Shown: one piece after another, positions 13,356 through 42,866 of the stretch
Position numbering within the stretch: position 1 is the stretch's first letter
Layout of the letters: every line of letters begins with the position of its first letter
Assembly (NCBI RefSeq): GCF_014852005.1
Contig: NZ_JACVAU010000003.1
Location: 62,001 to 126,000 of the forward strand
Direction: 5' to 3'
Length of the DNA: 64,000 nucleotides
DNA from: Pseudoxanthomonas sp. PXM03
Lineage (GTDB): Bacteria; Pseudomonadota; Gammaproteobacteria; Xanthomonadales; Xanthomonadaceae
Program-made: the position numbers and the translations under genes
The notes under the pieces: model-generated
What the model was told of the DNA's origin: nothing
Databases searched by the model: none
Seen by the model: the letters and a program-made list of their open reading frames with translations, nothing else

Positions 13356-13989
13356 TGCCCTGATGGGCACGCTTCCCGCTTGGCTCCAGCCCAGCTTCCA
13401 ACCGGTAGTCTGGCGATTGCTGGCCACCGGGGTGATTGCGCGCGGAGCCTCGGGTAGCGAGACCGAACTCTACGATCGCAGTGTGGACATGGAGCGCGTG
13501 CTCAGCGAGTTGTTTGAGGTGCTCGGCTTTCCTTTCCATCACGATCCCACCGCACAGACCGTCAGGCTCTACGCACCTGGCGCCTCGATCCCGGGTGTTC
13601 CGACCCACGATTGTCCGACCTATCCCCGGCTTACGACGAACGTATCGGCCGATCTGGCTGCTGGCCTGATTGCCTTGTGGCTCCTCTACCGCGAAGCCAT
13701 CGAGCGCAATCTGCTCAATGACCGGGGCGAGCGGGTGGTTGAACTGGCCGATCTGGACAACTGCATGGTGTCCCAGTTGCAGAACCTGTCGCTGCAGCGA
13801 CAGACCGACCGGCGAGCGATGCTGACCAGCTTCCGACAGCTTCGCGTTGTGAGGTTGCCCGATAGCGGTGTGGACATGGAGGCGGGCGAGGCGCTGGCCA
13901 TCCAGCGCGGCATCCTCAGCCTGATCTTCGATACCGCGGCCGAAGCGGCGTTGGAGCAGCGTGGTGACAAGGAGCGTGAGTCCGCATGA
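13339..13989 (+). CDS. jetB: Wadjet protein JetB (MukE/MksE-like)
   Basis: 216 aa, overlapping jetA by 17 bases (a second ATG at 13360 is possible). It has the size and winged-helix-rich composition of JetB/DUF4194, which binds the kleisin. It ends with an ATGA overlap into jetC, so the three proteins should be made in fixed ratio. The identification leans mainly on operon position. Confidence 0.78.
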   Translation: MQPIRDALMGTLPAWLQPSFQPVVWRLLATGVIARGASGSETELYDRSVDMERVLSELFEVLGFPFHHDPTAQTVRLYAPGASIPGVPTHDCPTYPRLTTNVSADLAAGLIALWLLYREAIERNLLNDRGERVVELADLDNCMVSQLQNLSLQRQTDRRAMLTSFRQLRVVRLPDSGVDMEAGEALAIQRGILSLIFDTAAEAALEQRGDKERESA

Positions 13990-17666: not shown

Positions 17667-18856
17667 TCCGCCCTGGGTTTCTCGAGGAGCCGCTGGTGGA
17701 TGCGGTCCTGCAGGCGCTGCTCAAACGGGCCGATCTGCGGGCGCCACCGCGGATCAGGCCACCACGCATCCGGCTTGACCAGGAGACTTGTCCGGTCTGG
17801 TTTGGCGCCATTGGCGGTGAGGCCAAGGCATTCAGCTGGAAGCGTTTGTTGGATTTGGAGCAGGCGACGCTGATCGTCGTGCGGGTCAAACATCGGCATG
17901 CGGACGCTCCTTGGCGCGACGAACCGGCCATCAGCCTGACGTCGTTAGGCGAAGAGCGCCTGCGTGAGTGGTTGGGTCACCCCTTTCCCGAGCCCAGCGC
18001 GAACAGGCAGTGGCGGGCTGCGGTAAGTGCTCGCGCTGGCCTGACCGATACCCTGCGGCAGGCGCTGCTGGTCAGGCCGCTGCTGATAGGAAGGCGAGAT
18101 CCTCAAGACATCCTGTCCCGCCTGCTTTCCGCCCATGCCACTTTCGGCCGGGCAGTCCGCAGACGGGTGGTGTCAGCCAAGGCGTTCTGGGGCCTGTCCA
18201 AGGTGTTGGACCAACGCGATGACCTGCTCAGGGCCCTAGAGGGCCAAGACGGGGAGGTGTGGCCCAGACGCACTCTGCTGATGCATGTGCGCGCGACGGT
18301 ACCGACGCCGGATGGGATCTTGTTCGTGGAGAACCTGGATGCCTTCGATGCGGCGTGCTTGGGAGAGGTGCCGCTGCCGGATACCTGGTGGATCCTCTAT
18401 GCCGCCGGCTTCAAGGGCAGTTCGAGCCGCCTGCTGACAAAAGGTGCCGTGCGTTGGTTCGGTGAGGTTGAAACTGACCACCTGACCTCGGCGCAATTGC
18501 ACCAGGGCCTGGAACAGGTCAACCAAGGCGTATGCGAAGCCGCTTTCTGGGGAGATCTGGATTTTGCTGGCATTACCATTCTTCGGGAATTGCGCCGGGT
18601 GATGCCCTCCATCCAAGCCTGGAAGCCGGGCTATACCAGATTGCTGGCGTTGCTTGAGACCGGGCAGGGGCATGAGCCGGAGGAGAGCGCGAAGGCGGGC
18701 CAACTGGATCCGGAGCGCAGCGGCTGCCCCTATAGCGATGAGGTACTGCTGCCTGCCATACGCAGGCATCGGAAATTTGTGGACCAGGAGGCGGTGTGCT
18801 TGGCCGATGACTGGACGCACGTAGCGCCACTGCCGCAGGCTTCTGGTCACGCGTGA
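17663..18856 (+). CDS. jetD: Wadjet nuclease JetD (TOPRIM, topo VI-A-like)
   Basis: 397 aa from a GTG that overlaps the jetC stop. The C-terminal half has a TOPRIM fold with the acidic motif LFVENLDAFDA near residue 222 and WGDLDFAGITIL near 295 (the DxD-type metal ligands). These residues are those expected for the DUF2220/DUF3322 JetD nuclease that cleaves plasmid DNA after loop extrusion. The active-site acids are present, so the system looks intact. An upstream frame beginning at 17561 lies within jetC and is rejected. Confidence 0.88.
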   Translation: MIRPGFLEEPLVDAVLQALLKRADLRAPPRIRPPRIRLDQETCPVWFGAIGGEAKAFSWKRLLDLEQATLIVVRVKHRHADAPWRDEPAISLTSLGEERLREWLGHPFPEPSANRQWRAAVSARAGLTDTLRQALLVRPLLIGRRDPQDILSRLLSAHATFGRAVRRRVVSAKAFWGLSKVLDQRDDLLRALEGQDGEVWPRRTLLMHVRATVPTPDGILFVENLDAFDAACLGEVPLPDTWWILYAAGFKGSSSRLLTKGAVRWFGEVETDHLTSAQLHQGLEQVNQGVCEAAFWGDLDFAGITILRELRRVMPSIQAWKPGYTRLLALLETGQGHEPEESAKAGQLDPERSGCPYSDEVLLPAIRRHRKFVDQEAVCLADDWTHVAPLPQASGHA

Positions 18857-18899: not shown

Positions 18900-20777
18900 A
18901 TGCACATCACCTTGGTTGAGATAGGCAATTTCCGAAAGCTGCTGGCGGCCCGAATCGAGTTTGCGCCAGAGAAGACCGTGCTGGTGGGCGCGAACAGTAG
19001 CGGCAAGACCTCAGCCATGACCGCGCTGCGACGCTTCCTCGTGGATCCACGGGGGTTTTCCATCAATGACCTGTCGCTGGCTCACTGGCAAGCACTGAAT
19101 GCACAAGGCCTGGTCTGGGAGGAGGCGATCGCCGCCAACCAGGACCTGCCGCCCCCCGATCTGATGGCTTTCCTGCCCCAGCTGGATGTCTGGCTACAGG
19201 CGGGCAAGGGGGAGATGCACTACGTCCAGAAGCTCTTGCCGACCCTGGACTGGACATCCGGCTCCCTGGGCGTGCGCTTGCGCTACGAGCCGGATGACCC
19301 GGTCAAATTCCAGCAGGAATACATCGCCGCGCGAGGCAAAGCCACCGCGATCGCTGCGGCGGTGATGGAGGCAGGAAAAGGGAAGGCGGACCCGCTGGAA
19401 CTGGAACTCTGGCCCCGCAACCTCATCGATTTCCTGGAGCGACGGTTGCGGCAGTTTTTCAAGGTCAAGGCCTATCTGCTGGATCCGGCCAAGCTCGTGG
19501 ATCCAAAGGAAGACCTGGCACAGATGCAGGCGCTGCCGGAGGGGATGGAGCCGGTGGAAGGCAACCCGCTTGATGGGCTGATCCAGATCGACGAGATCAG
19601 CGCACAGCGGGGCTTCGGCGCGCCCGGCGGGCGCTCCCCACGCGAAGAGGCCAGTGCGGATGCCAAGAGTGCAGGGCGCCTGTCAACGCAGCTACGCAGC
19701 TATTACGACAAGCACCTGGACTGGCGCGACACGCCCGAGTTGTCCGACATCAAGGCCATGGAGGCGCTGGAAAAGGCGCGCAAGGCCTTCGACGACCGTC
19801 TTTCCGAAGCTTTCGACAAAGCCTTGCTGGAACTGCAGAAGCTGGGCTATCCCGGGATCTCGGATCCGAAACTGAAGATCGCCAGCAAGCTCAAGCTGCA
19901 GGACGGTCTGAGCCACGACTCGGCGATCCAGTATGAGATTCCAGCCGCAGCTGGCGAGCTCATGCACCGCTTGCCGGAAGACTCCAATGGCTTGGGATAT
20001 CAAAACCTGGTCTCGATGGTCTTCAATCTGATGAGCCACCGGGATGCGTGGATGCGCGTTGGCAAGGCCGGCACCGGCGACGACGTGCCGCCGCCACCGC
20101 CACTTCACCTGATGCTGGTGGAAGAGCCCGAGGCTTACCTGCATGCCCAGGTCCAGCAGGTCTTTATCCGGCACGCCTATGAGGTGCTGCGCAACGATCC
20201 CGCGCTGGGTGCCTCGACCGAGTTCTCTACCCAGCTGGTCGTGAGCACGCACTCCAGCCACGTTGCCCATGCGTGCGACTTTGCGGCGCTGCGCTACTTC
20301 CGCCGACTGCCGCCCACGCCAGCACGCAAGACGCCCATTGCCTGTGTCGTCAACCTTTCCTCCGTGTTTGGCAAGCCCGACCAGACCGCCAAGTTCGTCG
20401 CGCGCTATCTCAAGGCCACCCACTGCGATCTGTTCTTTGCCGACGCCGCGGTATTCATCGAGGGCAGCGCCGAGCGCATTCTGGTGCCCCATTTTGTCGA
20501 GCAACAAGACGCTTTCTTGTATCTGCGCAGCTGCTACATCACCTGGCTCGAGGTGGGCGGCAGCCACGCCCATCGCTTCAAAGGGCTGGTGGAAACATTG
20601 GGTCTGACTACGCTGATCATCACCGACCTCGATGCCAAGGATCCGGCCACCCACAAGAGCGCGCCACCGGTGCTAGGTAAGGGCTTGGAAGCCGGCAATG
20701 AAACCTTGCGCTCCTGGGCGCCAAAACAGACCCAAGTCGATGTTCTGTTGAAGCTCGATGAGAAGGAGAAAGCGTAG
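18900..20777 (+). CDS. OLD-family AAA ATPase with TOPRIM nuclease domain
   Basis: 625 aa, with a strong Shine-Dalgarno (GAAGGAG) upstream. Walker A GANSSGKT is at residues 30-37, Walker B LMLVEEPEAYLH near 404-415, the D-loop/H-motif VVSTHSSHV near 445. A TOPRIM follows: EGSAER (about 521-526) and ITDLDA (about 575-580). This is the OLD/GajA architecture of phage-defence nucleases. The protein stops about 45 residues after DLDA, shorter than usual for the TOPRIM C-terminus, so it may be truncated. It is co-directional with and 43 bases from jetD; a link with Wadjet is only positional. Confidence 0.85.
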   Translation: MHITLVEIGNFRKLLAARIEFAPEKTVLVGANSSGKTSAMTALRRFLVDPRGFSINDLSLAHWQALNAQGLVWEEAIAANQDLPPPDLMAFLPQLDVWLQAGKGEMHYVQKLLPTLDWTSGSLGVRLRYEPDDPVKFQQEYIAARGKATAIAAAVMEAGKGKADPLELELWPRNLIDFLERRLRQFFKVKAYLLDPAKLVDPKEDLAQMQALPEGMEPVEGNPLDGLIQIDEISAQRGFGAPGGRSPREEASADAKSAGRLSTQLRSYYDKHLDWRDTPELSDIKAMEALEKARKAFDDRLSEAFDKALLELQKLGYPGISDPKLKIASKLKLQDGLSHDSAIQYEIPAAAGELMHRLPEDSNGLGYQNLVSMVFNLMSHRDAWMRVGKAGTGDDVPPPPPLHLMLVEEPEAYLHAQVQQVFIRHAYEVLRNDPALGASTEFSTQLVVSTHSSHVAHACDFAALRYFRRLPPTPARKTPIACVVNLSSVFGKPDQTAKFVARYLKATHCDLFFADAAVFIEGSAERILVPHFVEQQDAFLYLRSCYITWLEVGGSHAHRFKGLVETLGLTTLIITDLDAKDPATHKSAPPVLGKGLEAGNETLRSWAPKQTQVDVLLKLDEKEKA

Positions 20778-25746: not shown

Positions 25747-26826
25747 CTATGACCCATCCAACAAGCGCGCAGCCGGATGCTCCGGTGCGGCACCTGCCTG
25801 GAAGTAGCTGATCACACTGGCTACCGCCCGATGGTCGGTCATCGCCATCAACGCGGGAAGGGAGATACCCTGACGGGCGCCTTCGGTCACAAAGCCCGAG
25901 CGCAGGCTGTGCCCACCGAAGTCACCCTCCAAACCCGCCAACTGCGCCCGACGTTGGACGATCGCGGCCACCGCCGCGGGCGAAAGACCCTCGCCTAAAC
26001 GTGTCGCGCCCCAAACCCGCCGAAAGATCGGCCCAGTGACATGCCCGGCCGCCTGCAGCCAGGTCTCCAGGGCCAGGGCGGCCACGCCCAGGATCGGCTT
26101 GTCCGGCGTGGCGCCGGCGGCCGGTCCTTCTTGCTGGGTCTTGCTGTGGAGCAGTCGGTAGATAAAGCCGCTTTCCGGTAATCGCTGCAGGTCGGCCAAA
26201 TCGGCCGCGGCGATCTCGCTACGGCGGCGGCCGCCACTGGCAAAGCCGAAGCTCAACAGGGCGCGATCGCGCCGACCGATCAACGAGTCATCGCAGGTGG
26301 CCAACAGCGCCTCGAGCGCAGGGCGGGGCAGGGCGGTCTTCTGCCGTGGCCGCTCACCGCGCTTGGCCGCGGCCCGCCGCGCGGCCGTTGCCAGTGCTTT
26401 GACGGCCGGGGTGGCGCACGGATTGGGCTGCTCGCGCAGCTGGTGGATCTTGGACAGCACCGCCAGCCGGTGCACGACGGTATTGCGGCTCAGCGGCCCC
26501 AGGCGCTGCTTGAGGCCGGCCGCGACCAAGGCGGCATCCAGTCCCGGTGGCAGGTCGCAGACCTGGCCGCGGGCGGTCCGCCGGGTCAGGTGATCGACCA
26601 GGAACTGGATCACCACCGGTTCGGGCACCGGCCAGGGCAGAGCACGCCCGTAGCGGCCCTGGCCCCAGCCGCTCCAGTAGCGCAGCGCGGCGGCGTAGCT
26701 ACGGGTGGTATTGGCCGCGGCCGCCTCGGCCAGCAGCTCCCGAGCGGCGGTGGCGGCTTCCCGCGCCAGCACATGCGGATCCAGCGTCGGAAGGTCGACC
26801 AGCGGCCGCAAATCGTTCTTTTTCAT
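25747..26826 (-). CDS. tyrosine recombinase/integrase
   Basis: 359 aa. The N-terminal SAM-like core-binding domain (NTTRSYAAALRYWSGW) is followed by the catalytic domain with the Arg of GGRRRSEI, then HSLRSGF (His306, Arg309), DHRAVASVISYF (His332, nucleophile Tyr341). All catalytic residues are present. It is divergent from a KfrA-like gene with 106 bases between starts, a pairing found on mobile elements. It lies inside the accessory region rather than beside the tRNA, so its own attachment site is not evident. Confidence 0.9.
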   Translation of the reverse strand: MKKNDLRPLVDLPTLDPHVLAREAATAARELLAEAAAANTTRSYAAALRYWSGWGQGRYGRALPWPVPEPVVIQFLVDHLTRRTARGQVCDLPPGLDAALVAAGLKQRLGPLSRNTVVHRLAVLSKIHQLREQPNPCATPAVKALATAARRAAAKRGERPRQKTALPRPALEALLATCDDSLIGRRDRALLSFGFASGGRRRSEIAAADLADLQRLPESGFIYRLLHSKTQQEGPAAGATPDKPILGVAALALETWLQAAGHVTGPIFRRVWGATRLGEGLSPAAVAAIVQRRAQLAGLEGDFGGHSLRSGFVTEGARQGISLPALMAMTDHRAVASVISYFQAGAAPEHPAARLLDGS

Positions 26827-27935: not shown

Positions 27936-28238
27936 ATGGAAAGCATCGAGCTGGAGCTCGACGCCGAGTTCTTTTCAGCGGACGTCATTGCACGCACGGT
28001 CTACCGGTATACCGGCGACTACTACGTGCAGGTTGAGCGCGCGACGACTGCGCATCGCATCACTCTGATGCCGCGCACGCCTGACATCGACACAAACCAG
28101 CTGGCAGAGCGCTTCCAGACGGACGCCTGCGACGATCGGTTGCGCCAGCAGATCGCGCTTCAGACCGGCGACCTGCAGCACCTGCTCATGCGCGCGGCGA
28201 TTGAGCGTGCAGTGTCCGTGGGTGATGCCTCCACGTGA
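27936..28238 (+). CDS. hxsD: His-Xaa-Ser system protein HxsD
   Basis: 100 aa from an ATG preceded by GGGGGTGGGG. The N-terminus MESIELELDAEFFSADVIAR and the YTGDYYVQV strand match the small HxsD protein that accompanies the two Hxs radical-SAM enzymes. No catalytic motif is visible; a partner or peptide-recognition role is assumed. It overlaps hxsB by 4 bases and starts the hxsDBCA operon. Confidence 0.82.
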   Translation: MESIELELDAEFFSADVIARTVYRYTGDYYVQVERATTAHRITLMPRTPDIDTNQLAERFQTDACDDRLRQQIALQTGDLQHLLMRAAIERAVSVGDAST

Positions 28239-29731
28239 AGTTTCAGCCTGCCTCCGCCTTTGTTGGTAGCGCGTCTGCGTATCGGTTGCTGCCCCTTCGA
28301 TTCCGGCGCCTGCCCTGGGATCCAGCCCGGGTGTTCGTCAGTTCTGCTGCCGGTGACTGGTTGACTTGCCGGCACGAAGAGCTCGTACAACTGCTCAACG
28401 GAGATCTACCCGTCGACTCGGCGCTGATGCAAGACCTCCAGGCCCGGCATATCGTCGCCGGGCCGCTTGACACGTTGACCCTCTCGCCACTGCTCTCACA
28501 GCTGCGGACGCGCAAGGGCTATCTGGAAGGAGGGCCGGCACTGCATATCATTGTGGTGTCCCTGCGTTGCCATCACTCCTGCAGCTATTGTCAGGTTTCC
28601 CGGCAGGACACGCTGAAGCGCCAGTTCGATTTGCAGGAGACCCTCAACGCTCAACTGGTCGAGCGCCTGTTCCAGTGGCCATCGCCCACCCTGACCATCG
28701 AGTTCCAGGGCGGCGAGCCATTGCTGAATTTCAAGCAGGTCAAAGCGCTGACGGAGTTGATCCAAGCGCGAAACCGTAGTGAGGGCAGGGCGCTGCGTTT
28801 TGTCATCGCATCCACGTTGCACGGTATCACCGACACCGAACTGGAGTTCTTCGGAACTCATGGCTTTGAGCTATCCACCTCGCTCGATGGTCCCGCTTGG
28901 CTGCATAACGCCAATCGTCCCACGCCCACGCGCGATAGTTATGAGCGCACGATCGCGGGCATCCACAAAGCACGAGCGGCGTTGGGACACGACTGTGTGT
29001 CGGCCCTGACGACGTTGACAGCCAAAAGCCTGACTGCCCCCGAAGCCATCATCGACGAGTACCGGCAACAAGGGTTTCACAGCATTTCGCTGCGGCCGCT
29101 TAGCCCGTACGGTTTCGCGCGCAAGACTGCCGGCCGTATCGGCTACACCATGCGCGACTTCCTGGCGTTCTACAGGCGCGCCCTCGACACGATCATCCAG
29201 GTCAACCAGGACGGCTTTGCCCTGGAGGAGACGCACGCCAGCCTGCTGCTGACTCAGCTACTGACCCCCTTCAGTCATGGCTATGTGGATCTGCGCTCGC
29301 CTATGGGAGCCGGCGTGGGAGCAGTGGTGTATGACTACGATGGTCGCGTCTACCCCTCGGATGAAGCGCGCATGCTCGCGGCTCAGGGCGAGGACAGGTT
29401 TTGCCTCGGAACGCTGGACCAGCCCGTGCACGAGTGGCTTGCTTCGCCGGCGATGCAGGAACTACAAGCCGGGGGCGTGGCCGAGGCACTGCCGGGTTGC
29501 TCGGACTGTGCCTACGTCCCGCTGTGCGGCGCCGATCCGGTCGATCACTTCGCGCGTCAGGGCGAGGTCGTCGGCCACCGACCCACCTCGGACTTCTGCA
29601 CAAAGCAAATGGGCATGTTCGATCTGCTGCTGGAGCGCATTGAAAACGCTCCGCCGGCGGAGCGGCGCATCCTGGAGGGCTGGGCCATTGGCGCAAGGCA
29701 GATCGCGCCTGTGATGGAGCCGGTCCACTGA
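28235..29731 (+). CDS. hxsB: His-Xaa-Ser system radical SAM maturase HxsB
   Basis: 498 aa, GTG start overlapping hxsD. The radical-SAM cluster motif is RCHHSCSYC (Cys112, Cys116, Cys119), with the Gly-rich SAM-binding strand FQGGEPLL. A C-terminal SPASM-like set of Cys is seen in CSDCAYVPLCG and FCTKQ, which would hold auxiliary Fe-S clusters. It is the six-cysteine peptide-maturase type and should act on HxsA. The chemistry installed is not predictable from sequence. Confidence 0.88.
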   Translation: MKFQPASAFVGSASAYRLLPLRFRRLPWDPARVFVSSAAGDWLTCRHEELVQLLNGDLPVDSALMQDLQARHIVAGPLDTLTLSPLLSQLRTRKGYLEGGPALHIIVVSLRCHHSCSYCQVSRQDTLKRQFDLQETLNAQLVERLFQWPSPTLTIEFQGGEPLLNFKQVKALTELIQARNRSEGRALRFVIASTLHGITDTELEFFGTHGFELSTSLDGPAWLHNANRPTPTRDSYERTIAGIHKARAALGHDCVSALTTLTAKSLTAPEAIIDEYRQQGFHSISLRPLSPYGFARKTAGRIGYTMRDFLAFYRRALDTIIQVNQDGFALEETHASLLLTQLLTPFSHGYVDLRSPMGAGVGAVVYDYDGRVYPSDEARMLAAQGEDRFCLGTLDQPVHEWLASPAMQELQAGGVAEALPGCSDCAYVPLCGADPVDHFARQGEVVGHRPTSDFCTKQMGMFDLLLERIENAPPAERRILEGWAIGARQIAPVMEPVH

Positions 29732-30906
29732 TGCACCCTCAACAAGCCAAAGCAACCTTCTCTGGGCTTGAGCATGGCTACTACAAGGTTGCCGGGCTGC
29801 AGGAATTTGCCGCCGGACTGTACCCCCTGGAGCGGATGCTGCTGGATCTTCGCCACGCTCCCACTGCTGACATTGACTCACTGATCGCGTTGCCTTGGGC
29901 AGGCTTCATGGTAGACGAGGCTGACCGTGTGCCGCCTGATCGGCCGTGGATGCGGTGCGAGACGGACCAGGACTGGACCTCGCCCGGGGATGTATTGGAA
30001 CTGCAGCCCTCTGCAAGCCGTGCTGCATTGCGTTATCGCCGCGGCGACAACGGCAACGTGCTGTTCGCGACGGAGCAGTGCAACAGCTACTGCCTCATGT
30101 GTTCCCAGCCGCCACGGGTGATTGACGATTACTGGCGGCTTGAGCAACTCCATGCCTTGATCGACCTGATCGACAAGGATGAACGTTCTCTCGCCGTTAG
30201 CGGCGGGGAACCGATGCTACTGGGAGACGGACTGGTCGAGGTCATCGCCCACTGCCAGGCCGCGCTGCCTCAGACCCACGTCCATGTTCTCTCGAATGGA
30301 CGTTTGGCGGGGGAGGGTGGTTATGCCCGTCGCTTCACGGGCTTGCATGAGTCGCTCACTTGGGGCATCCCGCTCTACGGCGACACTCCGTTGCTGCACG
30401 ACTACATCGTCCAACGCCAAGGTGCTTTCGCACAGACTTTGCGAGGCCTGTACGCAATGGAGCAAGCCAAGCAGCGGATCGAAATTCGCATCGTGCTTGT
30501 CAAGGACGCCGTGCAGCGCCTGGAAAGCATTGCCCGTTTCATCTACAGAAACCTGCCGTTCGCCGAGCATGTCGCGCTGATGGGCGTGGAGCCCATTGGT
30601 TTTGCCAAGGCACACCATCAGTCACTTTGGATGGACCCCATCGATATGGGCCCAGCGCTCTCGGATTCCGTGCAGTTCCTTAGTTCGCGCAACATCGCCG
30701 TCTCAATCTACAACCTCCCACTGTGCACGCTTTCTCGCGAGCTTTGGTCCTTCTCACGCCAAAGCATCTCCCATTGGAAGCAGAACTACCGCCCGGAATG
30801 CCAACCCTGCCAGGTGCGCCAGCGCTGTGGGGGATTCTTTTCTTGGGTGACGCCAGACTGGCTTAGCCGTGGCGTTGCACCGATCAATCAACTGGAGCCA
30901 GCCTGA
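29731..30906 (+). CDS. hxsC: His-Xaa-Ser system radical SAM maturase HxsC
   Basis: 391 aa, starting in the hxsB stop (1-base overlap). The motif EQCNSYCLMC carries Cys117, Cys121 and Cys124 for the 4Fe-4S cluster; AVSGGEPMLLG is the SAM strand. A C-terminal CQPCQVRQRC probably binds a second cluster. Two radical-SAM enzymes side by side are the hallmark of Hxs loci. It overlaps hxsA by one base. Confidence 0.88.
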   Translation: MHPQQAKATFSGLEHGYYKVAGLQEFAAGLYPLERMLLDLRHAPTADIDSLIALPWAGFMVDEADRVPPDRPWMRCETDQDWTSPGDVLELQPSASRAALRYRRGDNGNVLFATEQCNSYCLMCSQPPRVIDDYWRLEQLHALIDLIDKDERSLAVSGGEPMLLGDGLVEVIAHCQAALPQTHVHVLSNGRLAGEGGYARRFTGLHESLTWGIPLYGDTPLLHDYIVQRQGAFAQTLRGLYAMEQAKQRIEIRIVLVKDAVQRLESIARFIYRNLPFAEHVALMGVEPIGFAKAHHQSLWMDPIDMGPALSDSVQFLSSRNIAVSIYNLPLCTLSRELWSFSRQSISHWKQNYRPECQPCQVRQRCGGFFSWVTPDWLSRGVAPINQLEPA

Positions 30907-31544
30907 TGAGCAAGACTCTCGCGTTCGCTACGGCCATCATCAATGGCGGCAGTCCAGTGGGCGGGCTGGCGGATCAAGGGTGGCAGGCTAGTGGGCTCAC
31001 CGAACTTGCTCTCAATGAGAGCAAGTTCACCACCACGCTCACGGCACCTTTGAACCACGAGCAGTTCAACATGTACGCGCGGCATCGTTCACATAGCTCG
31101 CACCGATCGCACAGTTCTCATCGGTCACATAGCTCGCACTACTCCGGAAGTGGAGGCACCTATCGTGCGCCGACCTATACGCCACCGCCTCCGCCACCCC
31201 CTACAACCTATCAGTCGACACCCCGATCGTCCTTCAACGGAAGCAGCAGCTCTGGTAGTTCGAGCTCTTCGAACAGCAGTTCGCAACCCTTGACGCTCGA
31301 ACCGGCGCAGAGGACGAAACAAAGCCTGACGCCTCGCCCCAGCTCCGACCAACTGCAAATGATGATCATGCGGGTGCAGGCAGCCCTCTATGCGCGCGGG
31401 TACGACCCTGGCGCCATTGACGGCGTCATGGGCATGCAAACGAAAGCAGCTCTAGCCTCGTTTCAATCGGCTCACGGACTTCCGGCGACTGGAACGATGA
31501 CAACGCCAACACTCAATGCGCTGGGCGTGGCAATCGCGCCATAA
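30906..31544 (+). CDS. hxsA: His-Xaa-Ser repeat protein HxsA (modified substrate)
   Basis: 212 aa. Residues 60-80 are seven uninterrupted His-Xaa-Ser triplets (HRS, HSS, HRS, HSS, HRS, HSS, HYS), the target of the HxsB/HxsC maturases. A Pro- and Ser-rich linker (about 85-125) follows, and residues about 145-210 form a PG_binding_1 peptidoglycan-binding domain (VQAALYARGYDPGAIDGVMG, FQSAHGLPATGTM). No classical signal peptide is seen. The modified repeats would be tethered to the cell wall. Product and role are unknown. Confidence 0.9.
   Translation: MSKTLAFATAIINGGSPVGGLADQGWQASGLTELALNESKFTTTLTAPLNHEQFNMYARHRSHSSHRSHSSHRSHSSHYSGSGGTYRAPTYTPPPPPPPTTYQSTPRSSFNGSSSSGSSSSSNSSSQPLTLEPAQRTKQSLTPRPSSDQLQMMIMRVQAALYARGYDPGAIDGVMGMQTKAALASFQSAHGLPATGTMTTPTLNALGVAIAP
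31083..31145 (+). repeat. seven His-Xaa-Ser codon triplets in hxsA
   Basis: The 63-bp stretch encodes HxS seven times; the middle residue alternates Arg and Ser except for the last (Tyr). The 18-bp HRSHSS units differ in synonymous codons, so the repeat is kept at protein rather than DNA level. Confidence 0.85.
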
Positions 31545-32528: not shown

Positions 32529-33092
32529 ATGTCATACAGAAACGGAAATTACGCAGCTTTCTATGTCGCTGAACCCTTCAGCACTTCGGGATTGAAAGCC
32601 CATGCCACGCCCGACTTCCTTCACTACAACCAACTAAGGATGTGGAAAGGAGCGGACGCAAGCTTTCCATTTAACGACTCGCACGACAAGACGTACAGCG
32701 TGCGCGACGGGAGTGATTGGGAAGCTACCCTGAAACCTAGGCTCCGCGAGCGCCTAAGAGCTTCGAAGAACATCGTTCTCTTCCTAAGTAACCACACCAA
32801 ATCTTCAAGAGCGCTTACCGAGGAGATTGACTACGGGATCAATACTGAGAGCTTGCCTGTGATTGTTGTCTATCCGGATTTCAACTCTCTCGCGGACTTG
32901 CGCAGCGGGACAACCTTCTCTCCATCGATCAAGGCTCTATGGGACCGTGTGCCGATCTTCAAAACCTCGATGCATAAAGTGCCGACAATGCATGTCCCAC
33001 TGCTCAAGCAAAACATTTCAAATGCGCTCAAGGATCCAGACTTCATGCTCGCCACCAAAGGAAAGTCAATAGCCTATTACTACAACCCTTGA
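32529..33092 (+). CDS. TIR-like protein, probable ThsB of Thoeris
   Basis: 187 aa of the TIR-like (DUF1863/MTH538) family: FYVAEPFSTSG, then WKGADASFPFNDSHDKTYSVRDGS, LKPRLRERLRASKNIVLFLSNHTKSSRALTEEIDYGI and LPVIVVYPD. Glu98 or Glu99 in SRALTEE is the likely NADase residue. In Thoeris, the TIR protein senses phage and makes a nucleotide-derived signal. The next gene encodes a TM-macro protein, so the pair matches type II Thoeris. Base composition is lower in GC than the backbone, as expected for an acquired locus. Confidence 0.8.
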   Translation: MSYRNGNYAAFYVAEPFSTSGLKAHATPDFLHYNQLRMWKGADASFPFNDSHDKTYSVRDGSDWEATLKPRLRERLRASKNIVLFLSNHTKSSRALTEEIDYGINTESLPVIVVYPDFNSLADLRSGTTFSPSIKALWDRVPIFKTSMHKVPTMHVPLLKQNISNALKDPDFMLATKGKSIAYYYNP

Positions 33093-33134
33093 GCCATAAG
33101 GCTAGCTTGTACGAAGCGACCTGGAGGAGATGAG

Positions 33135-33968
33135 GTGAAAGTACAGTTTCTCGACAAGAACGCCGTTAAGAGATCAGTGAAAATTATCGCCGGACTCTCA
33201 ACTTCACTTTCGATTGCATTGCTGTTCGTAGACATTCCGCCAGAGCGCAAGATCTATGCGGGCGCATTGTTCTTGCTGGCTCTCCTATCCATACACCTAG
33301 TCATCTGGATTCAAGCGAACCGACTTAGAGAAATAAGTATTGATGTCGAAGGGAGTACAGTCAGCATCAAGACTGGCGACATTTTTAAGCAGCGAGGCTT
33401 GAAAGCGATCGCATTCAATGAGTACTTCGACACTCAGGTGGACAACGTCCTCATCAGTGAAGAATCGCTCAACGGAAAACTGATTACTTCAAAACTTAAG
33501 GAGCCTCCGGAAACGCTAGATGCGCACATCGAAAACTACAAATTTGATGATGGTGATGTACTTGAAACAAATGTGACTAGGACATCCGGAAAGACTACTC
33601 GATACCGGCTCGGCACCATCTGTGTATACAACGACTTCCTTCTCGCTGCCTTCGCCCGATTTGACGATAACAATCAAGCAAGCCTAACGATGCCTGAGTA
33701 TCTCGAATTTCTGATCAATTTCTGGGATAGGGTGAATAGGGTGTATGCCCAAAAGAATGTATCAACCACCATCTTTGGCTCTGGCATCACTCGGATTAAG
33801 GGCCATAAGCTGATAAATGAAGAGGACCTTCTTAAGATCATGCTATGGACATTCCGAATCAGCGAGATGAGGTTCAAGTATCCAGCGAAACTCACAATCG
33901 TCATTCATGAAGACAAGATTGGGCAGATCAACCTACTGGATATCGCTTCTGCCAAGAATGGAGTATAG
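33135..33968 (+). CDS. two-TM plus macro-domain effector, probable type II ThsA
   Basis: 277 aa, GTG start with GGAGGAGATGAG directly upstream. Two membrane helices (about residues 15-32 and 36-57) form a hairpin. The rest (about 65-270) resembles a macro-like domain: VSIKTGDIFKQRGLKAIAFNEYFDTQVDNVLISEESLNG is its nucleotide-binding start, and GSGITRIKG a second loop. Type II Thoeris effectors combine two helices with a macro domain that binds the ADP-ribose-type signal made by the TIR partner and are thought to damage the membrane. Confidence 0.78.
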   Translation: MKVQFLDKNAVKRSVKIIAGLSTSLSIALLFVDIPPERKIYAGALFLLALLSIHLVIWIQANRLREISIDVEGSTVSIKTGDIFKQRGLKAIAFNEYFDTQVDNVLISEESLNGKLITSKLKEPPETLDAHIENYKFDDGDVLETNVTRTSGKTTRYRLGTICVYNDFLLAAFARFDDNNQASLTMPEYLEFLINFWDRVNRVYAQKNVSTTIFGSGITRIKGHKLINEEDLLKIMLWTFRISEMRFKYPAKLTIVIHEDKIGQINLLDIASAKNGV

Positions 33969-36869: not shown

Positions 36870-36949
36870 GACGCAATGATACACGCAGGCTATTCAGGAG
36901 GCAGCCATCATGGAATATGCTAGGGCTGATCTCCCATGGGGGTGGGGCC

Positions 36950-37459
36950 ATGAAGTTCCTCGAAACCGCGTTTGGCCAGCTGGCGTTCGCTTGGAAGCTC
37001 TACAACTACGGCCTTGACGGAAAGATCAACCGAGAGGACTTGGACATCCCTCTGACGTTCAAGGAAGACGGGATGATGTTGGTGCTTCCTGACCGCGTGC
37101 TGGATTCAGACGACGACCTCCGCATCGCACTTGCGAACAACTTGGGCATAGCCTTCGGCGCGGCCGCCATCACGCTCAATCGTAGTCGCGAAGAAGCAGG
37201 CTTGACCCTCCCTAACCCCATCGCGACCGACACCGATCAGTTCGTTGCGCTGACCTATCAGATCCGCAATGCGTTCGCACATGACATCTCCGAGCCAAGA
37301 TGGAACATCACGCAAGCCCGATACCGCAGGGCGTATGCGTTCGATGGCGTGAACGTAGACCTGACCGACAAGCACGAGCGTTTTTTCGATTATGAGGACA
37401 TCGGTGGTCCCGAGACACTGTTTCAACTTCACCAGTTTGGCAAAAGGCTCTGGGCCTGA
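36950..37459 (+). CDS. HEPN-like hypothetical protein
   Basis: 169 aa from the ATG after GGGGGTGGGG. The protein is helical and contains QIRNAFAHDI, where Arg106 and His111 make the Rx4-6H motif (with the polar residue after Arg) of HEPN ribonucleases. Overall fold similarity cannot be verified by eye. It is paired head to head with a PIN gene and followed after 9 bases by a 36-aa reading frame that may be its partner. Confidence 0.55.
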   Translation: MKFLETAFGQLAFAWKLYNYGLDGKINREDLDIPLTFKEDGMMLVLPDRVLDSDDDLRIALANNLGIAFGAAAITLNRSREEAGLTLPNPIATDTDQFVALTYQIRNAFAHDISEPRWNITQARYRRAYAFDGVNVDLTDKHERFFDYEDIGGPETLFQLHQFGKRLWA

Positions 37460-37603: not shown

Positions 37604-39832
37604 ATGATCAAGTCGATCAGCATTCAAGGCTACAAGAGCTTTCATCCCACGCAAGCGGTGACCATTCCCATCGCGGTGGACAAACAGCAGCCCGTTTTCA
37701 TCTACGGCCTCAATGGCGCCGGCAAGACGGCCATCGGCGAGGTCATTGATGGTCGGGCCAGTGGCGATGCGAGATTTCAGCACTGCAAGGTGGAAGCGAC
37801 GCAAGGTGGACCCTTCCGATACATGGTCTACAACCACCATTTCGTGCAGAGGGTCATTGGTGAAGCGGAGGGCATGCCAGGGATCTTCACGCTGGGCGAG
37901 CTCGATACCGCAGTTCTGCGAGAAATCGAGGACAAGGAGCGCCAACTTGGCGAGATTGGCGCGGAGCGCGAGGCCATCACGCAGGACAATTTGCGGTTGC
38001 AGCCACTGATCGACACCGCCAGCAAGGCCGCCCTTGAGGAGGTGTGGACGGTCTACCAAGACCACGACGGTGGCACGTTTGATGAGTTCATCACGGGCTA
38101 CGGGCGTGGCAAACAAAAGTTCTTCGATGACCTGTGGCGGTATAGGACGGACGACACGGAGGTGCTCGATACACTGGAAGTGCTGGCCCAGCGACTCAGC
38201 GATGTGTCTGGGACAGAGGAGCGGAAGAGCACCTTTCAGTTCAGCATGGGGGACTTGGAGCCGATCGGGTCTGATCCCGTATGGAAGGTGCCCATTGAAA
38301 TCTCTGGTGACAGCCGCTTGGCACCGCTGATTGAAAGGCTTGGAAACGCCGATTGGGTCGGCACGGGACGACCATACATGAGGGACGACCAGTGTCCGTT
38401 CTGTCAGGAAGGTCTGCCCGCCGATTTCACAGGTGAGTTGGCCAAGCTCCTCGACGGGGATCGTCAGACCAAGATCGACGGCTTGCAAGCCAAGGTGGAT
38501 AGATATGTCGCAGCTGCCGAAGTTCTGGAAGCGCAGGTGAAAGCAGCGATGGACGAACCGCTCTCAACACAAACCAGTTTGAAGGGCGCATGGCACGTTG
38601 TGCACGTGGGGCTCATCTCCAACATTGTCAGCATGAGAGCGAAGCTGGCACGTCCCAGTGATGCGGTTGTGATTGACGCTCTCCACTTGATGCCGCTGCG
38701 TGATGCGCTGACTGCCTTGAATGCGCGGATTGAGACGTTCAACGAACGCATCCTAAACAGAGAGGCCGAGCGTCAGGCCATCAAGGAGATGTTCTGGAAG
38801 GTTATGTGTCGTGATCGGGCAGGCGCCTACAAGACCTATCACACCATGTTGGAGCCGCTGACCAAGCGAAAGAGTGACAATTGGACCAAGGAAATGGCTG
38901 CCGACATCAAGCAAAAGGAACTCGGCGCGCGGCTCACGAAGCTGCGGCAGAACCAAGAGGGTGTCGGTGCGTCAGTAGAGGCCATCAACGCCCGACTGAA
39001 ATCCTTGGGAATTCAGTCATTTTCTATCGCGCTCAAAGACAACGAAAGCAATTTGTATCGCTTGCAACGGCCCAACAATGAAGGAAGTGATCCGCACACC
39101 CTCAGCGAGGGAGAGAAGACGCTAATCTCATTCCTCTACTTCATTGAGCTGCTGAAAGGTGCCTCAGAGCGGGGGCAACGCGTGGTGCAAGGGCAAACCA
39201 TCGTGGTCATTGACGACCCGATATCCAGCCTGTCCCACAATTACGTCTATGATATCGCCACCATCATCTGTGCTGAGCTGATCAAGCCGCCAGGCGGCCG
39301 CAAGGTGCGGCAGATCATTGTCCTCACACACAGCCTATTCTTCTTGCATGAGCTGGTTGGGCAGGTGGCGGTGCGTGACCTTGCCAAGGCGGCCAACCAC
39401 TGCCAGTTGTTCCGAGTTGTCAAGGGTGAACACAGCAAGGTCGTCCCGCTGCTCGCCCGTGATTTCGCCAATGACTATGACGCCCTGTGGCAGGTGATCC
39501 GCGACGCCAAGGACGGAAACGTCCCGCAACAGGTTGTCCCCAACACCATGCGTTGCATTCTGGAAACTTTCTTCGCGTTCACGGGGAAGACCAAGCAGAT
39601 CGAAGACATCCTCTTGGAGATGTCCAACGCCGACCGAACCTTTGTCCCATTGGCCCGCTATCTCAATCGGGGCTCCCACAAAGACGCCGTCAACCAGGTG
39701 GGTGTGGATTGGAGCATGTTCAATCTGGACTACTACTTGGACAAGCTCGAAAAGGTCTTCGTGGCGGCAGGGCACGACGAGCATTTCGGGATGAAGATGG
39801 GGCAGGGTGACAATCAGGCGACCGCTGCGTGA
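37604..39832 (+). CDS. AAA_13 ATPase with putative anticodon-nuclease residues (RloC/PrrC-like)
   Basis: 742 aa, with AAGGGGAAGG upstream. Walker A GLNGAGKT is at residues 35-42; a coiled-coil region carries a CPFC zinc-hook-type motif near 265; LSEGEKT is the ABC signature near 500 and IVVIDDPISSLSHN the extended Walker B near 535. C-terminally Arg650-x3-Glu654 and His692 reproduce the Arg-Glu-His arrangement of PrrC/RloC tRNA anticodon nucleases. The zinc hook favours RloC. RNase activity is inferred from these residues only. Confidence 0.72.
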   Translation: MIKSISIQGYKSFHPTQAVTIPIAVDKQQPVFIYGLNGAGKTAIGEVIDGRASGDARFQHCKVEATQGGPFRYMVYNHHFVQRVIGEAEGMPGIFTLGELDTAVLREIEDKERQLGEIGAEREAITQDNLRLQPLIDTASKAALEEVWTVYQDHDGGTFDEFITGYGRGKQKFFDDLWRYRTDDTEVLDTLEVLAQRLSDVSGTEERKSTFQFSMGDLEPIGSDPVWKVPIEISGDSRLAPLIERLGNADWVGTGRPYMRDDQCPFCQEGLPADFTGELAKLLDGDRQTKIDGLQAKVDRYVAAAEVLEAQVKAAMDEPLSTQTSLKGAWHVVHVGLISNIVSMRAKLARPSDAVVIDALHLMPLRDALTALNARIETFNERILNREAERQAIKEMFWKVMCRDRAGAYKTYHTMLEPLTKRKSDNWTKEMAADIKQKELGARLTKLRQNQEGVGASVEAINARLKSLGIQSFSIALKDNESNLYRLQRPNNEGSDPHTLSEGEKTLISFLYFIELLKGASERGQRVVQGQTIVVIDDPISSLSHNYVYDIATIICAELIKPPGGRKVRQIIVLTHSLFFLHELVGQVAVRDLAKAANHCQLFRVVKGEHSKVVPLLARDFANDYDALWQVIRDAKDGNVPQQVVPNTMRCILETFFAFTGKTKQIEDILLEMSNADRTFVPLARYLNRGSHKDAVNQVGVDWSMFNLDYYLDKLEKVFVAAGHDEHFGMKMGQGDNQATAA

Positions 39833-40656
39833 AGCAGACCCGACCACTGCCCTCGATTGAAGAGATCTTGCGCAAGGATCGGGAGTTTAAGGATCAACTT
39901 GAACGAGCGATGGAAGCCGACGCCAAAGCCCGCTGGGCCAAGGTCATGCGTTCTCAGTTTCCTGCAGGGGAACGTGTGTCCAGATCAGCCTGGATGTCAG
40001 GTCCGAGCAGGGACGAGCTCCACGTCTGGTTGCATGTCACGGATGACGGTGAGCCGTTCTTTGTCGGCCGTGGACGTGGCGCCACTGCATGGGAGCGCAA
40101 CGGTGGGCTTGCTTGGGAGTGGTTCGTGCGGGAAGAACTGGGTGGCTCATATCACGTGGTGATCCCCGCGAGTGACCTGAACGAGAGGGGCAGCCAGATC
40201 TTGGTGGATGCCGTGATGTGCTCGCATTGGGACAAGCTGCTCAATCAAAGCAACATCCATCGTCCCGCAGGCGGGCCAGACTCGGACCGCCGATGGGAAG
40301 CCCTCGGCAATCTCAAACCTTGCTATGAGGCAGTCAAGCAGGCGGGCAATGATGAGCTGCGCGCACGGTTGGCGCTGGAAGCCCAAGAGCTTCAATACCT
40401 CGCGGCCAACTTTCGCATGGAGCAGGGACGGTTCGGCGAGGTGCTGCACAAGATGAAGGCAGACCGCGCCACCAACATGTTCTTCATCAAGCCGCTCATT
40501 GAGAGCTTGATGCGGCTGGGACGTGTGGAAGACGCCCGCCATCAGATGGCTCGGTTCAAAGAACTGGCACCTGTGGAATACCGCAGCCCGACGGCGGCCA
40601 AGCTCCAAGTCATCGTGGATCGCGGGACATATCGGAAGCGTTCCAAGAAGCTCTGA
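39829..40656 (+). CDS. partner of RloC-like ATPase with diverged GIY-YIG-like region
   Basis: 275 aa, GTG start overlapping the ATPase gene by 4 bases, so the two are translationally coupled. Residues about 66-142 (VWLHVTDDGEPFFVGRGRG, then ILVDAVM and LLNQSN) look like the LEM3-type GIY-YIG fold, in which a YVGKGxG loop is followed by an acidic residue and an LxN end. The usual Tyr and Glu appear replaced, so activity is doubtful. Residues about 160-255 are helical, TPR-like. No described two-gene system with this pairing was recognised. Confidence 0.5.
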   Translation: MKQTRPLPSIEEILRKDREFKDQLERAMEADAKARWAKVMRSQFPAGERVSRSAWMSGPSRDELHVWLHVTDDGEPFFVGRGRGATAWERNGGLAWEWFVREELGGSYHVVIPASDLNERGSQILVDAVMCSHWDKLLNQSNIHRPAGGPDSDRRWEALGNLKPCYEAVKQAGNDELRARLALEAQELQYLAANFRMEQGRFGEVLHKMKADRATNMFFIKPLIESLMRLGRVEDARHQMARFKELAPVEYRSPTAAKLQVIVDRGTYRKRSKKL

Positions 40657-41050: not shown

Positions 41051-41692
41051 ATGGAAGAAGAGCAACCAGATATTTGGGAAGAGTTCGTGTTGCAGTCCCA
41101 CGAGCTGGTGGTGGAGCTCATTGACTGCGTGGCATTCGACGTCAATACCGACGAGCCTCGCATCGCGTTGAGTGAAGTACTTCTATCGTTGGCGTTTGAG
41201 CACTCCCACTCTGCGCGGATGCTGCTGCATACGGGGTTCCTGCCATCCGCTCTGGTCGTTCATCGATCCCAGTTTGAGGCCGTCGTGCGGTCGCTGTGGG
41301 TGCTCTATGGCGCCAGTGATCAGGTGGTGGGAAAACTCAGCGCAGAATTGAACTTGGTGACCGAACTGGCTGCCAAGAACATTCCGACCGCGTCCAAGAT
41401 GATGGAAGACTTGGCGGTGAAAGCCCCACCGAATGCCTTCAAGCCGCTCAACCACTTCAAGACCCACATGTGGGGTGCACTCAACTCCTACGTGCACGCC
41501 GGCATTCACCCCATCCGCAGGCATGCCGATGGCTATCCGGCTTGGTTACTTACCAATGTCATGAAAAACGTCAATGGCCTGTCGGTGGTGACCGCTATGC
41601 AGGCTGCGATGCTGCTCATAGGGACGGAGCTGCAACAAGAAGTGCTAACCATCGCGGATCGGTATGCCCATGTGCTGGGGCCGCCCAATTAG
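41051..41692 (+). CDS. hypothetical helical protein (DUF6988/DUF5677-like)
   Basis: 213 aa, helical and soluble. The region SALVVHRSQFEAVVRSLWVLYGAS and the later YVHAGIHPIRRH are the most distinctive; this pattern recalls DUF6988/DUF5677 proteins, often found in accessory regions and sometimes related to HEPN folds. No catalytic group is evident. It is the last gene before the right dif-like site. Confidence 0.5.
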   Translation: MEEEQPDIWEEFVLQSHELVVELIDCVAFDVNTDEPRIALSEVLLSLAFEHSHSARMLLHTGFLPSALVVHRSQFEAVVRSLWVLYGASDQVVGKLSAELNLVTELAAKNIPTASKMMEDLAVKAPPNAFKPLNHFKTHMWGALNSYVHAGIHPIRRHADGYPAWLLTNVMKNVNGLSVVTAMQAAMLLIGTELQQEVLTIADRYAHVLGPPN

Positions 41693-41891: not shown

Positions 41892-42482
41892 TCAATCCCT
41901 TCGCGACGCTCTCATCCAATAGGACTTTGGGGGGGGCCTTAAACCCATCCTATGGAAGCTCAAAGCCCAAGGCGGCGGCGCAACTCTGCCGGTAACGACC
42001 AGCCAAGCTACCCGAAGCGCCTCCGCGTCAACAAGTGCGTGGTGACGCCGAGCAGCGGCCGTGGGATGGCCTGCAAAGTAGTCTTCAATCAACATTCCCG
42101 TGGCACCTTCCTTGAGCATTCTGGTCATCACAGGCTGTGGGACAGGGCCACATACCGCAGCCTGATCATCTGAAAGGTCGAACCCTGCGATCACATACTT
42201 CAGAAGCGCTAGGTCATTGGGATAGTCAGCCACCACAATCGGCTCAGTGACAGCGCACAAGAAGGCACGCAGGCCGGTCGTCATGGCTTGGTCTGTCATA
42301 CGGTACCTGCCACGTTCCAGCAGGGGATAGACAACCGATCGCACGAAGTCGGTGGCCACGTCGGGCAAGGGATCGCGCTCAGCATAAAACCGATGAGCTC
42401 CATCTTCAGAGATGAGTGCGAAGCTCACTAGCTCGGAGCCCGTCGGGTCCGCCCATTCGGTATCGAGGAATAGATAGGTCAC
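41892..42482 (-). CDS. DEDDh 3'-5' exonuclease-like protein
   Basis: 196 aa. The exonuclease motifs are LFLDTEW (Asp7, Glu9), VADYPNDLALLK (Asp) and RHHALVDAEALR (His and Asp), giving the DEDDh set in the order of the RNase T/Rv2179c-like family. It is likely an RNase or DNase of the DnaQ fold acting on RNA ends or on short oligonucleotides. It lies alone between the dif-like site and a small gene near the tRNA. Confidence 0.7.
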   Translation of the reverse strand: MTYLFLDTEWADPTGSELVSFALISEDGAHRFYAERDPLPDVATDFVRSVVYPLLERGRYRMTDQAMTTGLRAFLCAVTEPIVVADYPNDLALLKYVIAGFDLSDDQAAVCGPVPQPVMTRMLKEGATGMLIEDYFAGHPTAAARRHHALVDAEALRVAWLVVTGRVAPPPWALSFHRMGLRPPPKSYWMRASRRD

Positions 42483-42529: not shown

Positions 42530-42730
42530 TTAACCATCTCCGGTTGAATGAAATGCGTATAGGTGGGCGGCTTTCGCCCCCTCGACTACGTCTAAGCGAT
42601 CAAGCTCCTTAGTCCTGGCAATCATCTCTTGGACAAGAAGCCACCGGCCTTCTTCAGTCAGGCACCAGCCACCACGCACTTCGTCATAGACGATGTGCGA
42701 GATGTAGTTGTCGGGATCTAAGACGGGCAT
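42530..42730 (-). CDS. small hypothetical protein next to the tRNA gene
   Basis: 66 aa from ATG 42730; an in-frame extension to 42781 would read through the 3' end of the tRNA and is rejected. The protein contains DPDNYISHIVYDEVRGGWCLTEEGRW and a charged helix. It lies 21 bases after the tRNA 3' end on the same strand. No family was recognised. Confidence 0.45.
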   Translation of the reverse strand: MPVLDPDNYISHIVYDEVRGGWCLTEEGRWLLVQEMIARTKELDRLDVVEGAKAAHLYAFHSTGDG

Positions 42731-42751
42731 AAGCAACCCCGGTGAGAGGTA

Positions 42752-42845
42752 TGGTGCCCCTGGCCGGACTCGAACCGGCACAAGCCGCTTATCTGGCGCT
42801 GACGGGTTATAAAACCGCTGCTCTAACCAATTGAGCTACAGGGGC
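42752..42845 (-). tRNA. tRNA with anticodon UAU (Ile) and long variable arm
   Basis: The minus strand folds into a cloverleaf: 7-bp acceptor GCCCCTG/CAGGGGC, D-stem GCTC/GAGC, T-arm GCCGG-TTCGAGT-CCGGC, and an encoded 3' ACCA. The anticodon loop TTTATAA gives UAU at 42809-42811, reading AUA (Ile). Between anticodon and T arms lie about 22 bases instead of the usual 5, and the anticodon stem has one T-C mismatch. Long variable arms belong to Leu, Ser and Tyr tRNAs, so this is an atypical isoacceptor or a decaying mobile-element tRNA. Confidence 0.7.
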
Positions 42846-42866
42846 TGATCAGTCGACTGATCAGCC
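42843..42866. repeat. 24-bp perfect palindrome at the tRNA 5' end
   Basis: Bases 42843-42866 form a perfect palindrome centred on GTCGAC, with arms beginning GGCTGATCA. It overlaps the first three bases of the tRNA and extends into its upstream region, where it could be an operator, a processing hairpin or a recombination relic. Confidence 0.7.

Follow-up and report, generated by a model that had tools for sequence, protein, structure and literature searches.

Within a 64,000-nucleotide stretch of the 4.03 Mb genome of Pseudoxanthomonas sp. PXM03 (contig NZ_JACVAU010000003.1, forward-strand positions 62,001 to 126,000), referred to below as the window, two adjacent genes encode a predicted ATPase with a C-terminal nuclease motif and a protein containing a GIY-YIG domain. 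The stop codon of the ATPase gene and the start codon of the second gene overlap by four bases (GTGA). A first-pass annotation of the stretch had correctly recorded this overlap and had proposed that the second gene encodes a dedicated partner of the ATPase in a new two-gene arrangement. The features of the two genes, in window coordinates, are listed here.

37604..39832, plus strand: RloC-type (PDC-S06) ABC-ATPase of 742 amino acids, with a CX2C hook and a C-terminal HEPN/anticodon-nuclease triad (open reading frame, Pfam, PADLOC, alignment and model)
38393..38404, plus strand: CPFC hook motif, residues 264-267 of the ATPase (C264 and C267 invariant in the alignment)
39551..39679, plus strand: R650-X3-E654-X37-H692 triad region of the ATPase, with S691 before H692 (alignment and RloC motif)
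39829..40656, plus strand: GIY-YIG plus TPR-like protein of 275 amino acids with a GTG start, very probably nuclease-dead (open reading frame, alignment, profile and model)
40018..40224, plus strand: core of the GIY-YIG domain, catalytic residues lost, model residues 64-132 (model and profile)
40276..40650, plus strand: TPR-like helical tail, model residues 150-274 (model, and similarity of the tail to repeat proteins at two other loci, L003 and L004)

The ATPase matched Pfam AAA_13 with an E value of 2.9e-101 over residues 32-717 (profile positions 20-710 of 713), with its Walker A motif at residue 35, and matched the PADLOC PDC-S06 model PDLC04886 almost from end to end (E value 5.5e-209, residues 1-734, profile positions 1-724 of 727). 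PDC-S06 is a phage defense candidate that is named in 4 papers, and its "S" presumably marks single-gene candidates; the second protein, unlike the ATPase, matched no PADLOC model. As defined in passages of Davidov and Kaufmann 2008 (PMC2610378), RloC proteins of the Geobacillus kaustophilus type have ABC motifs, a CX2C insert, the motif R-X3-E-X36-52-H, often with S before the H, and a length of 658-897 amino acids, while PrrC proteins are 341-416 amino acids long; in the same passages, only 8 of 72 RloC genes lie within a restriction locus of type I or III. Like RloC, the window protein is predicted to be an ABC ATPase interrupted by a helical insert that carries the CX2C motif, its E654-H692 gap of 37 residues and its length both lie within the RloC range, and its C-terminal motif has the serine before the histidine. 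The AAA_13 core, the CPFC motif and the R650/E654/H692 set are thus exactly as the first-pass annotation described them, and its RloC-like reading of the ATPase holds. The window ATPase has the features of RloC that can be checked in a sequence, and tRNA cleavage would be ascribed to it through its family. It differs from RloC in that it is known from sequence and model, and in that its stop codon is overlapped by a GIY-YIG-TPR gene unrelated to it. No restriction gene was found among the neighboring proteins scanned (10 proteins each, with Pfam and PADLOC). PrrC shares the ABC motifs and the triad, but the PADLOC PrrC model matched only residues 485-698 (E value 5.2e-13), the window protein has a hook insert and is 742 amino acids long, outside the PrrC length range, and PrrC proper was rejected because of this misfit in size and hook.

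The motifs were well conserved among relatives. In an alignment of 21 ATPases that included the window's, the ATPase-motif residues, C264, C267, E654 and S691 were invariant, and R650 and H692 were conserved in at least 90% of the rows; in a second alignment of 22 rows, again including the window's and using 21 of 62 usable viral rows, R650, E654 and H692 were all invariant. A motif script found the triad pattern at the expected place in 36 of the 40 best-scoring ATPase loci. It could be argued that the HEPN domain acts on some RNA target different from the anticodon loops of tRNAs, since the targets of HEPN domains vary, according to passages of PMC3710099, and motifs alone link the window ATPase to the anticodon nucleases. 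However, the spacing of the triad and the serine before the histidine fit the RloC motif, and we regard a different RNA target as unlikely.

The AlphaFold2 model of the ATPase had a mean predicted local distance difference test (pLDDT) score of 80.0 and a predicted template modeling (pTM) score of 0.49; the alignments used for structure prediction here contained 12 rows and 22 rows, the larger one being the second alignment described above. The best structural matches of the ATPase head were to Rad50 (Z 17.6, root mean square deviation 7.0, 298 residues aligned; Foldseek E value 3.7e-8). The CX2C hook was flanked by helices on both sides in the model, and, by analogy with RloC, this hook would bind zinc. 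The C-terminal part was helical, and the residues after 632, which include the triad, were barely covered by the structure search. PDB sequence searches with the ATPase returned no chain named RloC or PrrC within the limits used (60 of 70 matches listed in one search).

Searched alone, the second protein matched nothing in Pfam, NCBIfam or PADLOC at E values up to 1, and as a single sequence it matched nothing in the PDB at E values up to 10. The GIY-YIG columns became clear when it was aligned with its plasmid and genome relatives and with GIY-YIG-domain relatives from viral contigs. A profile built from 13 rows, with neither the window protein nor its closest relative among them, gave the window protein 47.2 bits, with 2000 shuffled copies scoring 7.5 bits or less; the rows came from searches begun with the window protein, which favors such a score, and the 13 include three almost identical copies from Acinetobacter. 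With nine rows cut to the GIY-YIG domain, or barely exceeding it, the profile gave the window protein 41.7 bits. Searched against the PDB, a 15-row profile that included the window protein matched 9u7u, a chain named as a GIY-YIG protein (E value 3.5e-5).

GIY-YIG nucleases rely on a Tyr, an Arg and a Glu for catalysis. At these columns the second protein has Phe for Y78 (Tyr in 14 of 14 other rows), Thr for R86 (conserved in 13 of 14) and Val for E126 (13 of 14), and it also has His for Y65 (Tyr in 14 of 14) and Trp for Y67 (13 of 14). Since these columns are lost, the second protein is very probably not a nuclease. It does retain H69, G74, F77, G80, G82, W96, L137 and N139 of the GIY-YIG scaffold. 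It therefore resembles the GIY-YIG endonucleases (its viral-contig relatives, PDB 9u7u and, weakly, the UvrC domain) in profile and scaffold residues, and differs from them in its replaced Y, R and E, its TPR-like tail and an extra N-terminal helix. Judged from the sequence, it is most likely a DNA- and/or protein-binding protein.

The model of the second protein (mean pLDDT 82.3, pTM 0.60) has a long helix in its N-terminal part, the GIY-YIG core (residues 64-132) and further helices (residues 150-274). Foldseek gave no match at an E value of 0.001 or better, and the UvrC GIY-YIG domain 1yd6_C was a weak match at rank 49 (E value 0.91, TM-score 0.56 by target). TPR proteins were among the top VIA-align rows, with Z values of 9-11.2, which a helical model may attain by chance, and the two genome matches to the tail (L003 and L004) fall in repeat-containing proteins. 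These two were considered as possible fusions of the ATPase and its neighbor, and the idea was dropped because their open reading frames encode repeat-containing proteins, read as TPR-sulfotransferase-like, and not this ATPase. The description of the gene as a degenerate GIY-YIG domain followed by TPR-like helices, made in the first pass, was borne out by the profile score, the lost columns and the modeled helices; the structure prediction itself had the core and the helices, the match of the core to UvrC was weak, and a fold unrelated to GIY-YIG was not indicated.

A gene with five changed GIY-YIG columns might be a former nuclease that is decaying toward a pseudogene. We consider this quite unlikely, as the frame is open and intact over 275 amino acids, the scaffold residues are kept, and the closest relative of the protein, encoded on a Xanthomonas translucens plasmid (34% identity), has also lost the Y67, R86 and E126 columns and nevertheless has an open frame of 264 amino acids. 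This plasmid relative retains Y65 and Y78, and its gene adjoins a RelE/ParE toxin gene and replication genes, with no ATPase gene beside it.

If the two genes formed a dedicated pair, the second should recur beside relatives of the first. We surveyed 104 ATPase loci, which are not independent of one another: 80 on viral contigs from a single scan (among the matches listed), 8 on plasmids (examined out of 90 plasmid records in which the ATPase was found) and 16 in whole genomes, including the window's own. Three further loci (L009, L042 and L043) were left out, being the same places as L056, L055 and L054, which have longer flanks. Two profiles, the GIY-YIG profile and one made from six long rows, were run against the loci at E values up to 1. 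A GIY-YIG neighbor was present at one of the 104, the window's own, and was absent from the 103 others, 90 of which have at least 600 bases of downstream sequence (91 loci with the window). Among these 91, a same-strand open reading frame of at least 100 amino acids lay within 60 bases in 17, the window's included; the 17 are of several kinds, two of which recur among viral contigs.

The absence was reciprocal. The ATPase was found, at an E value of 1e-10, in none of the five others that carry relatives of the neighbor (two genomes, one 4.09-Mb record and two plasmid records), and the neighbor was found, at an E value of 1e-4, in none of the seven others that carry relatives of the ATPase (six genomes and one plasmid record). 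The neighbor was missing from the nearest relatives of the ATPase: a 57% identical relative over residues 3-290 that is broken by a stop (genome G916), a 44% relative in a genome of the same genus (G220), a 40% relative (G936) and a 43.8% relative on a Xanthomonas campestris plasmid. Because relatives of the neighbor occur without the ATPase and relatives of the ATPase occur without the neighbor, a dedicated pair is unsupported; the neighborhood survey that the first-pass annotation had suggested showed no conserved pairing, and its proposal of a dedicated partner was ruled against by the single adjacency in 104 loci and the reciprocal absences.

These results bear on two other explanations of the overlap. 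In the first, the genes would form a true two-gene system, in which the nuclease-dead GIY-YIG-TPR protein would bind DNA that is branched or comes from phages and would use its TPR-like helices to switch the ATPase on or off. The four-base overlap, the retention of scaffold residues with loss of catalytic ones, as expected of a binding module, and a TPR-like tail suited to protein contact would all accord with such a system, but against the pattern of absences just described, and with different overlapping neighbors at some other ATPase loci, we find it decidedly unlikely. One such neighbor is a DUF3223 ("DCL family") gene, whose start is overlapped by one base by the end of an RloC-type ATPase gene (L018 4001-7008). 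Another is a 74 amino acid protein that overlaps the X. campestris plasmid ATPase (L016 1-7223), which itself lies 1.6 kb after transposase, TniB and TniQ genes. In the second explanation, the downstream protein would be an antitoxin that keeps the RloC-type nuclease silent. This has only the overlapping downstream position in its favor and is scarcely credible, as RloC is described in passages of PMC3710099 as being silenced by its own ATPase domain and the 103 other ATPase loci lack the second gene. Literature searches found nothing that combined GIY-YIG with Rad50-like and anti-phage; GIY-YIG, RloC and anti-phage occur together in 2 papers. Scans for promoters and terminators turned up fewer sites than were obtained with shuffled sequence.

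Relatives of the second protein were rare and scattered. They occurred in five records of the plasmid collection and in 3 of 70 candidate stretches in a genome-contig scan, one of which matched the GIY-YIG domain only. In a genome sample with one genome per species, matches were found in 4 of 198 genomes of the family, including the window's own and two with tail-only matches, and in 1 of 369 genomes of the class and 1 of 299 of the phylum, in both cases the window's own. A scan of viral contigs with the single protein found none, while a scan with the alignment found 18 loci that matched only around the GIY-YIG domain; the phages collection, searched for the possibility of a phage-borne partner, gave no match at an E value of 1e-3. 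A GIY-YIG-TPR relative in Acinetobacter rathckeae (L013 507-7032) keeps the catalytic columns and lies one open reading frame from Mu-type transposase and TniQ genes; in this locus and in L016, which are from different organisms, the distance to the Tni-type transposition genes is no more than about 1.7 kb. Tni-type genes lie beside the GIY-YIG gene at a further locus (L007), as read by similarity to L013. From these separate contexts, relatives of both the ATPase and the second gene look like mobile cargo that travels separately.

We therefore judge it likely that the ATPase is a stand-alone defense protein of the RloC type and that the next gene is a separate piece of mobile cargo rather than a conserved partner; independent cargo is the best reading of the role of the second protein. 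By analogy with the RloC family, as described in PMC2610378 and PMC3710099, the Rad50-like ATPase head with its zinc hook would keep the C-terminal HEPN anticodon nuclease silent, control would depend on the hook, a disturbance of DNA such as phage infection would cause the head to release the nuclease, and the released nuclease would cut tRNA, leading to a stop in translation and abortive infection. The second gene, with its GIY-YIG scaffold lacking catalysis and its TPR-like helices, would have arrived as mobile cargo and become the overlapping neighbor of the ATPase gene within the island.

Several observations weigh against this conclusion or stand beside it. The GTGA overlap points to coupled translation of the two genes in this genome, and the G+C contents of the ATPase gene (0.568) and the second gene (0.595) are similar, compared with 0.626 for the window. 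No ATPase relative that was found exceeds 57% identity, and the one at that level is broken, which leaves room for a pairing within a narrow clade; the genomes searched were a sample with one genome for each species. It is possible to imagine such a clade, in which an RloC variant recruited a nuclease-dead GIY-YIG-TPR protein, co-translated from the overlapping frame, to sense DNA structures or to regulate the tRNA nuclease, although we hold this to be very improbable. One row of the 21-ATPase alignment (L051) lacks R650 and H692, and of the four loci not recovered by the motif script, two have the triad by alignment (L065 and L067), one is a fragment (L073) and one gave no script match (L059). 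Of the three loci of the Acinetobacter type, L006 lacks Tni-type genes next to its GIY-YIG gene.

Other features of the window are as follows.

11907-18856, plus strand: homologues of Wadjet JetA, JetB, JetC and JetD in order (JetABCD)
18900-20777, plus strand: GajA homologue, its best match ending at profile position 616 of 752
25747-26826, minus strand: phage-type integrase
28235-31544, plus strand: His-Xaa-Ser system with HxsB and HxsC maturases, then a protein with HSSHRSHSS-type repeats, inside the defense island
32529-33968, plus strand: Thoeris ThsB/ThsA pair
36917-37459, plus strand: protein of 180 amino acids just upstream of the ATPase, unmatched in Pfam, NCBIfam and PADLOC at E values up to 1
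41051-41692, plus strand: DUF6988/PDC-S52 gene
41892-42482, minus strand: exoribonuclease-like open reading frame (its own match in Pfam falls short of the cut-off, E value 0.035; its plasmid relatives are annotated as 3'-5' exoribonuclease)
42752-42845, minus strand: tRNA-Ile(UAU), separated from the PDC-S52 gene by about 1.06 kb and from the second gene by 2.1 kb

By the predicted gene content around them, the two genes lie in a composite defense island (Wadjet, GajA, Thoeris and PDC-S52), and such dense packing makes a chance adjacency of unrelated genes plausible. The ATPase gene, its upstream neighbor and the PDC-S52 gene have G+C contents of 0.565-0.568. In the upstream 180 amino acid protein, the sequence RNAFAH was read as a possible HEPN Rx4H motif, and a 26% identical Catenovulum relative keeps RNAFSH. 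The DUF6988/PDC-S52 gene has matches in 11 of 38 genomes of the genus, including its own; a shared island was considered for two same-genus genomes with this gene and rejected, as only the DUF6988 gene matched the window in blastn.

The tRNA-Ile(UAU) gene looks mobile and patchy in its occurrence, has a long variable region, and neighbors the exoribonuclease-like gene on the same strand. This tRNA was present in 7 of the 38 genus genomes, counting that of the window, and two of the 7 have it twice. Of these nine copies, two were diverged (75-79%), and eight had the exoribonuclease-like stretch adjacent to them. Among 27 plasmid records with the exoribonuclease protein, all 23 from Xanthomonas had the tRNA on the same strand, 34-116 bases from the protein match by a comparison of positions made by eye, on the 5' side of the gene in 4 and on the 3' side in 19, and many of these plasmids closely duplicate one another. 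In the 4 records from outside Xanthomonas, no match to the tRNA was found. Because all 23 Xanthomonas records with the protein have the tRNA beside it, a functional link between tRNA-Ile(UAU) and the exoribonuclease is suggested. Against a fixed link, the tRNA, or part of it, occurred without a match to the protein in 7 of 30 records of one plasmid search and in 21 of 40 of another. The tRNA pattern was also found in 44 viral stretches, with the exoribonuclease within the available DNA in one; 10 of the 44 were scanned with ARAGORN, which called tRNA-Ile(tat), mostly inside arrays of other tRNAs. TTATA and the 14-nucleotide variable-region motif GCGCCAGATAAGCG were identical in 13 aligned copies of the tRNA. 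Six copies (L160 and L166-L170) were called GAU by ARAGORN, apparently because it took the loop of the variable arm as the anticodon, and were read as UAU by alignment. A duplication of the tRNA 3' end as an att site was considered and rejected, since a 23-base pattern allowing up to one mismatch occurred once in the whole genome, in the tRNA itself, and no exact direct repeat of at least 12 bases of 42701-42860 was found elsewhere in the window. Literature searches found nothing on this arrangement of a mobile-looking tRNA-Ile(UAU) and an exoribonuclease-like gene, which may be more interesting than the ATPase and its neighbor.

For the ATPase and its neighbor, the analysis corrects a pairing that was plausible but over-read: the examined RloC-type proteins of this group are encoded either alone or next to neighbors of various kinds. 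The GIY-YIG-TPR proteins appear to be rare, separately mobile genes, and catalytic residues are gone from two of them, the window's and that of the Xanthomonas plasmid. Should the two genes work as a pair after all, they would offer a rare example of an anticodon nuclease controlled by a nuclease domain that has been retired from catalysis and put to new use.

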